A DNA stretch of 33,874 nucleotides. Origin: Candidatus Melainabacteria bacterium. GTDB lineage: Bacteria > Cyanobacteriota > Vampirovibrionia > 2-02-FULL-35-15. Position 1 is the stretch's first letter. Every line of letters begins with the position of its first letter. Positions 2,151-3,681 of the stretch are shown piece by piece. The position numbers were made by a program, and so were the translations under genes. The notes under the pieces were generated by a model. The model ran no database searches and was not told the DNA's origin. It saw nothing but the letters and a program-made list of their open reading frames with translations. The DNA lies in assembly GCA_023250205.1 (NCBI GenBank), contig JAHFBE010000005.1, positions 16,376-50,249 on the forward strand, written 5' to 3'.

Positions 2151-2153
2151 TGT

Positions 2154-2263
2154 GTCATTGCGAGGGAAGAGACGTTGCATGCAACGTCTCCACAGCAATC
2201 CCGATCTAACTTGCACAAATAGTTTGGGATTGCCACGCCTCATTTTATTCGGCTCGCAATGAC
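2154..2263. repeat. MITE-like palindromic element (family copy 1)
   Basis: Perfect 11-bp terminal inverted repeats GTCATTGCGAG ... CTCGCAATGAC. Internal perfect 22-bp palindrome GAGACGTTGCATGCAACGTCTC (2169-2190). Nearly the whole element recurs inverted at 8375-8465. Confidence 0.9.
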
Positions 2264-2265
2264 AG

Positions 2266-3681
2266 TTATTTTCCAATACAAAACTTCGCAAAGATATTTT
2301 TTATCACTTCATCGCTAATGGTTCTTCCTGAGATTTCATCAAGCTTGGAAATTGCGTTTTTAAGTTCATCTGATATTAGATCTTCTGAAATGTTTTTATT
2401 TGCGAGATCTGTAGAATTTTCAATTGCAGAATTGCATTGTATAAGTAATTCTTTTTGTCTTTGATTGATATAGCAGTATTGAGTATTGCCGCCTTTGGCG
2501 AGCCTCGCCTCTAGCGGGAGTATTGAGTGTCGAGTGTTAAAGAGCGAAGAGGCTTTTTCAATCAATAGTTTTTTCAGCTGAGTAATGTTATCGCCATTTT
2601 TTGCAGATATCAAAATATCAAACCCATTTTTACTGATGTTGCTAGTGTCAACTAAATCAACCTTATTCCCTATAATTATCTTTGATTTATCTTTTATTAG
2701 ATTAGAGAATTCACTTTGATCATGACTCTTGTTGGTTAAATCAAATACTCCTAAAACAATGTCAGAATTCTGGATACTTTGTTTACTTCTTTCAATTCCC
2801 ATTTTTTCGGATTTGCTGGCAGAATCTTTTTCTCTGATTCCCGCAGTATCAACTAAAATAACTGACCAGCCGTCAATTAATATTTTTTCTTCTACCGTAT
2901 CTCTTGTTGTACCAGGTTCATCTGAAACAATTGCTCTTTCACTTTCAAGTAATTGATTTAAAAGACTTGATTTACCTGCATTTGTAGGACCAACAATTGA
3001 AACTTTTATTCCTTCCCTTAGTAGCAGACCTTCTCTAGAATCTTTAATTAATTCACCTATTTCAGATTGTATATTTTTTAAGTTTGCAACTACTTCTTCT
3101 TTACTCATATCAGCTATATCCATAGGAAACTCTACTGAACTTTCAATAGATGTAATTAAGTTAAGAAGTTTTTCCCTAAATCCGACAATCTTGTCTTTTA
3201 ATGATCCTGAAAGTATTTGTGAAGCAATTGAAACAGCTTTTTCATTGTCAGCAGAAATAATCTCGTTTATAGCTTCAGCTTCTGTTAGATCTATTCTTCC
3301 ATTAACAAAAGCACGAAATGTAAACTCTCCATTTTTTGCTTGTCTCACACCATGTTTTAAACATAGATCAAGCACTTGTGATGTTACCTGTAAGCCGCCA
3401 TGACAAAAAATTTCAACAGTGTCTTCAGTAGTAAAACTGTTCGGAGCTTTATAAGGAAGAATAATTACTTCATCGATAGTTTTATCATTATCTTTTATAT
3501 ATCCATGTTGAGCGTACATATGTTCGAAAGAGTATTGAGTATTGAGTATTGGGTATTGAGTTTGAGAGAAAATCTTTTGTCCGATCTTCCAGCTTTCAGT
3601 TCCTGAAATGCGAATAACAGAAATAGCTCCAGTTCCTTTTGGAGTACAGATTGCACAGATTGTGTCGGAGATATTAAACAT
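2266..3681 (-). CDS. mnmE: tRNA modification GTPase MnmE (TrmE)
   Basis: 'DTICAICTPKGTGAISVIRISG' N-terminus, G1 'GPTNAGKSSLLN', 'GTTRDTVEE', 'DTAGIREK', C-terminal 'FCIGK'. Contains two in-frame repeat insertions (2474-2538 and 3530-3560). Confidence 0.97.
   Translation of the reverse strand: MFNISDTICAICTPKGTGAISVIRISGTESWKIGQKIFSQTQYPILNTQYSFEHMYAQHGYIKDNDKTIDEVIILPYKAPNSFTTEDTVEIFCHGGLQVTSQVLDLCLKHGVRQAKNGEFTFRAFVNGRIDLTEAEAINEIISADNEKAVSIASQILSGSLKDKIVGFREKLLNLITSIESSVEFPMDIADMSKEEVVANLKNIQSEIGELIKDSREGLLLREGIKVSIVGPTNAGKSSLLNQLLESERAIVSDEPGTTRDTVEEKILIDGWSVILVDTAGIREKDSASKSEKMGIERSKQSIQNSDIVLGVFDLTNKSHDQSEFSNLIKDKSKIIIGNKVDLVDTSNISKNGFDILISAKNGDNITQLKKLLIEKASSLFNTRHSILPLEARLAKGGNTQYCYINQRQKELLIQCNSAIENSTDLANKNISEDLISDELKNAISKLDEISGRTISDEVIKNIFAKFCIGK
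2474..2538. repeat. Heptamer-flanked palindromic insertion inside mnmE
   Basis: cagtatt gagtatt | gccgcctttggcgagcctcgcctctagcggg | gagtatt gagtgtc gagtgtt; central hairpin GGCGAG-C-CTCGCC. Encodes the non-canonical segment 'NTRHSILPLEARLAKGGNTQYC' just before 'INQRQKELL'. Confidence 0.8.
3530..3560. repeat. 7-bp tandem repeat inside mnmE
   Basis: gagtatt x3 + gggtatt + gag; encodes 'QTQYPILNTQYS' on the coding strand. Confidence 0.88.

Follow-up and report, generated by a model that had tools for sequence, protein, structure and literature searches.

The mnmE gene studied here lies in a 33,874-nucleotide stretch of a Candidatus Melainabacteria contig (the window) and carries two in-frame segments of GAGTATT-type heptamers, raising the question of how such sequence entered an otherwise conserved GTPase. 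The initial annotation took the segments for two insertions of one repeat family and for a peculiarity of this gene. Comparison with related genomes makes it very probable that they are traces left in permissive loops by the recurrent, layered insertion of very small repeats.

The mnmE product and its two heptamer segments

The mnmE open reading frame encodes a complete MnmE, and judged by its sequence the protein still looks functional. Pfam matched TrmE_N (2.7e-38), the G domain and MnmE_helical (6.3e-44), which together with the C-terminal C[IV]GK define MnmE/TrmE proteins, and an orthologue alignment showed the GTPase motifs and the C-terminal FCIGK to be intact. The closest solved structures are all MnmE, the best being 1xzp (E 3.5e-90), and the nearest named MnmE matches share only about 40% identity. 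No benefit of the repeat segments to MnmE is claimed.

Both segments read letter for letter and in frame as first described, encode the peptides given for them, and belong to one heptamer family foreign to canonical MnmE (Table 1). Their description as two insertions fits one segment better than the other. Site B, in the linker between the G domain and the C-terminal helices, is 11 to 12 residues longer than in the congeners G001 and G002. The loop at site A ranges from 6 to 20 residues over nine family members, so that its 15 residues here, compared with 17 in G001 and 7 in G002, do not clearly amount to an insertion; site A is a simple array, and its loop varies naturally in length. An AlphaFold model built on 14 sequences gave pLDDT values below 50 at residues 42-54, covering site A, at residues 383-389 and 392-400, covering site B, and in two other short stretches (252-259 and 467-471).

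Table 1. mnmE and repeat features of the window, in window coordinates
Feature	Position	Strand	Description
mnmE (trmE)	2266..3681	minus	471 aa; identified by ORF, Pfam, PDB relatives and orthologue alignment
Site B	2474..2538	minus	five-unit heptamer array (35 bp) plus nested 30-bp element; encodes NTRHSILPLEARLAKGGNTQYC
30-bp hairpin element	2489..2518	minus	CCGCCTTTGGCGAGCCTCGCCTCTAGCGGG (+ strand reading); inserted at TG^A
Site A	3530..3560	minus	(GAGTATT)3-GGGTATT-GAG array; sense ACTCAAT; about residues 42-51
GCATGAA / TTCGTGY heptamer family	15371..15449	.	two inverted arms; hairpin

Site B also proved not to be simply built on the 7-bp unit, as had been proposed. In the 65-bp block, heptamers of the GAGTATT type flank GGCGAG-C-CTCGCC, and cutting out 30 bp around this palindrome leaves CAGTATT-GAGTATT-GAGTATT-GAGTGTC-GAGTGTT, exactly 35 bp with the 7-bp period perfectly restored. 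Site B is a heptamer array into which a distinct mobile hairpin of 30 bp has been inserted at TG^A. BLAST found no second full copy of the composite site in the genome of origin (G000). Directly 3' of mnmE, window positions 2153-2264 hold a TGTCATTGCGAG...CTCGCAATGACA repeat enclosing a second palindrome, AGAGACGTTGCATGCAACGTCTCC, an apparent nested repeat.

Dispersed heptamer arrays and a precisely inserted 30-bp element

Heptamers of the mnmE type are scattered through the genome of origin. At two or fewer mismatches, GAGTATTGAGTATT occurs five times in the window, a number reached by none of 100 shuffles. The genome-wide count called for at the outset gave 21 places in the 2.08-Mb assembly at one or fewer mismatches, against one for the reversed control, and exact GAGTATTGAGTATT, a two-unit match, occurs nowhere among 59 relatives, two of them congeners. 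Work on the genome of origin drew on stretches totaling about 1.02 Mb. Thirteen arrays were placed in this genome. Eight of these lie in genes: two in mnmE and one each in alaS, eno, priA and the genes for uracil-DNA glycosylase, prephenate dehydrogenase and an agmatine-deiminase-like protein (Pfam-confirmed). All eight in-gene arrays have the ACTCAAT sense, the stop-free orientation (two-sided p 0.008), and this unit is stop-free in all three frames.

The 30-bp element consists of a 5-bp outer stem, a 3x3 internal loop, a 5-bp inner stem and a 3-nt loop, with CCGCC and GGCGGG at its ends. It is present in 8 of 11 genomes of the family and in none of 10 from other families (reversed control, 0 matches); a covariance model run on 386 genomes of the phylum matched family members only, and a plasmid collection and viral contigs gave zero matches. 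Loose thresholds yield about 26 distinct copies, a list in which three copies, those of a TCGCC...AACC subtype, may belong to another repeat. Copies of the typical CCGCC form mostly have TG before and A after. Compensatory stem changes, tried as support for the hairpin, failed to appear; the variants are mostly wobble pairs.

Removing the element restores the neighboring heptamer period at 7/7 or 6/7 positions in nine copies and at 5/7 in one more; besides the mnmE copy, the junction period is 7/7 in four copies and 6/7 in four others. Heptamer contexts, roughly 0.06% of the sequence, hold about 10 of the 23 typical copies, and the element favors other repeats as targets. The majority of copies fall within open reading frames, where the main reading is PAEGEARQGR, and the consensus has zero stops in six frames. 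Being ten codons long and without a stop in any frame, the element is frame neutral on insertion, and the reading frame is kept in the other conserved genes that were compared. Copies in genes favor one strand by about 14 to 5, too weak a bias for any interpretation.

Orthologous empty sites were found for two copies. In alaS, the empty site GGCAATTCATGAATTG of G002 corresponds to GGCAATTCATG-[30 bp]-AATTG in G001. In a gene for an FeS protein, the empty site AAAATTGAAGA of G000 corresponds to GATTG-[30 bp]-AAGA in G002, and the gene of G001 likewise lacks the 30 bp. Both pairs record an exact 30-bp gain at TG^A; together with period restoration, they fix the ends, length and target of the element. 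Since empty sites are seldom available, mobility of very small repeats is hard to prove; in the alaS pair, one repeat is seen both without and with a second element. The nesting in alaS is stepwise: G000 lacks a HELPQQ segment, G002 has the segment without the element, and G001 has both. In a separate case, one loop of a queG-like gene (L088, L252) contains a GGGGC...GCCCC palindrome in G000 and another, different one in G005, that of G005 being split by the 30-bp element.

Loop hotspots, alternative readings and a possible mode of spread

The genome of origin has a second heptamer unit, GCACGAA/GCATGAA, whose arrays form hairpins with two inverted arms; those in carB and pgm are examples. Within the window, a hairpin of this family lies just upstream of the open reading frame at 14285-15391, overlapping its called start, with ssb on the other side; its + strand folds at -36.6 kcal/mol (z -6.7). 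The true start of that frame is probably MKYCVLGAG, further in than called. The carB hairpin folds at -56 kcal/mol (z -8) on the non-coding strand, and stronger folding of that strand is compatible both with avoidance of stops and with selection against hairpins in the mRNA. In carB (L133:14420-14499) the heptamers form an insert of about 35 residues in two inverted arms, and the same loop holds a different heptamer hairpin in G001 and a TCACTGCGAG repeat in G003. The units of G001 differ (CAGAGAT), and 13 of 13 arrays sampled in that genome overlap open reading frames.

Both mnmE loops likewise carry other repeats in related species. At site A the loop consists of heptamers (ATTCTCG) in G001 and carries an octamer array in G008 and a palindrome in G009, and the site B loop of G008 holds a GTAG-type palindrome. 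Across six loops, a significant palindrome or tandem repeat was found in 14 of 50 relatives' loops and in 2 of 136 control segments, two segments that fell on the loops themselves having been excluded (Fisher p 2e-7); all five genes had been picked for having G000 arrays, G000 was left out of the count, and loops are naturally variable places. Some loop palindromes start with GTAG, the tag of RAYT-type REPs (PMC3733652), and GTAG-type palindromes fill several of these loops. Such sites are permissive, in that a number of unrelated small repeats land there and persist. With same-unit arrays in six other conserved genes and other heptamers or palindromes in the relatives' loops, mnmE becomes one case of recurrent nested invasion rather than the oddity it had seemed.

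Three other explanations of the mnmE segments were weighed. Plain microsatellite slippage, by which both sites would be ordinary heptamer repeats grown in place and the hairpin a chance GC-rich interruption, draws on the fact that heptamers are the commonest 5- to 11-nt simple repeats in many bacteria (PMC4679880, PMC4692102) and on the repetitive site A loops of G001 and G008. It is unlikely: 13 separate GAGTATT places with no exact two-unit match among the 59 relatives require dispersal, not local growth alone, and a chance hairpin is contradicted by dispersed relatives that share its ends and target and by exact 30-bp empty sites. Very unlikely is a reading of the segments as functional MnmE additions kept by selection, through a changed contact with tRNA or MnmG or through a regulatory mRNA hairpin. 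The gene is intact, the inserts lie in low-confidence loops, and site B sits at the junction of the G and helical domains, as this reading would have it; however, the segments are missing in the sister G002 and replaced by unrelated repeats in G001, G005, G008 and G009, the same units occur in unrelated proteins, and folding of the sense strand is no stronger than that of shuffles at site B (z -0.85) and absent at site A.

The chance that the segments are an assembly artifact, an alternative raised when they were first described, is close to negligible. The draft is metagenome-like, in 83 contigs at 86.5% completeness, and units could be miscounted with short reads; against this, the segments fit within a read and keep the frame, and misassembly is unlikely since the pattern recurs, with other units, in separately assembled relatives.

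For recurrent, layered insertion, the analysis shows that the repeats are dispersed and lie in frame, that the 30-bp gain is precise and has empty sites to match, that nesting occurs, that the element is restricted to the family and that loops are hotspots; from this we infer a mode of spread. In the first layer, a species-specific heptamer array of ACTCAAT sense is dispersed to many loci of its genome, and arrays, once seeded, may expand by slippage. In the second, at site B only, the family-specific hairpin interrupts the array exactly where TG meets A, adding ten residues with the frame kept, which MnmE presumably tolerates where the loop is disordered. The hairpin may move as a folded single strand with trans-acting machinery, and selection would purge insertions outside loops or in a stop-containing orientation. 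As to such machinery, no mobilizing enzyme could be linked to the element, and no Y1 transposase match was obtained in G006, the genome richest in element copies. Y1 transposases are present in some genomes; the Y1_Tnp match of G000 is weak, and inspection by eye found neither a heptamer array nor the 30-bp element beside it. One contig of G000 (L231, C29) encodes, at about 1132-1716, a Y1-transposase-like gene with in-frame repeats of its own, of the GGGCAAACACATTGGTTTGCCC type.

It is tentatively proposed that this lineage-specific, ten-codon element is among the smallest precise insertion elements known, one that targets TG^A inside other repeats, is open in six frames, and so can spread among essential coding genes and leave them intact, producing protein loops that are layered and species specific. 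How a 30-bp sequence moves without an enzyme of its own is now a directly testable question, and such insertions would be one natural way for essential enzymes to gain new loops.

Relation to known small repeats

The GAGTATT arrays resemble the heptanucleotide STRRs of Calothrix, Nostoc, Xanthomonas and Beggiatoaceae (TAACTGA) in being degenerate tandem 7-bp units, species typical, at many dispersed loci, and with inverted arms; paired inverted heptamer arms are known from the P6b stem of the Nostoc trnL intron (PMC4476775). Heptanucleotide STRRs and long simple-sequence repeats are, however, described as mainly intergenic (PMC4692102, PMC4679880), whereas 8 of the 13 GAGTATT arrays lie in genes and in frame.

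Like Rickettsia palindromic elements (RPEs), the 30-bp element is palindromic and sits in frame in unrelated housekeeping genes, but RPEs are about 150 bp long (PMC10969869) and some end in CGTC (PMC3733652), whereas the element is shorter, ends in CCGCC and GGCGGG, and has TG^A inside other repeats as its target. Intragenic GTAG/CGTC REPs are also short palindromes, of 20 to 40 bp, some of them inside genes (PMC3733652); the element differs in carrying neither tag and, as it seems, in having no linked RAYT gene.

Intragenic REPs, RPEs, heptanucleotide repeats and small dispersed repeats (SDRs; Elhai et al. 2008, Genome Res, cited in PMC3116915) have each already been described. The combination seen here, in which a frame-neutral hairpin of exactly 30 bp lies nested in heptamers inside essential genes, did not turn up in the limited literature searched. 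The SDRs of Nostoc and its relatives are reportedly very small dispersed hairpin repeats of 21 to 27 nt, precisely inserted, and are said to lie commonly within tandem heptamers and to be nested in further repeats. The element described here is likewise a dispersed, precisely inserted hairpin embedded in heptamer arrays or other repeats. It differs in length, the two empty-site comparisons and period restoration in mnmE giving 30 bp in a comparison made by description, and it belongs to another lineage, where it resides mostly inside conserved protein genes and leaves their reading frames unchanged.
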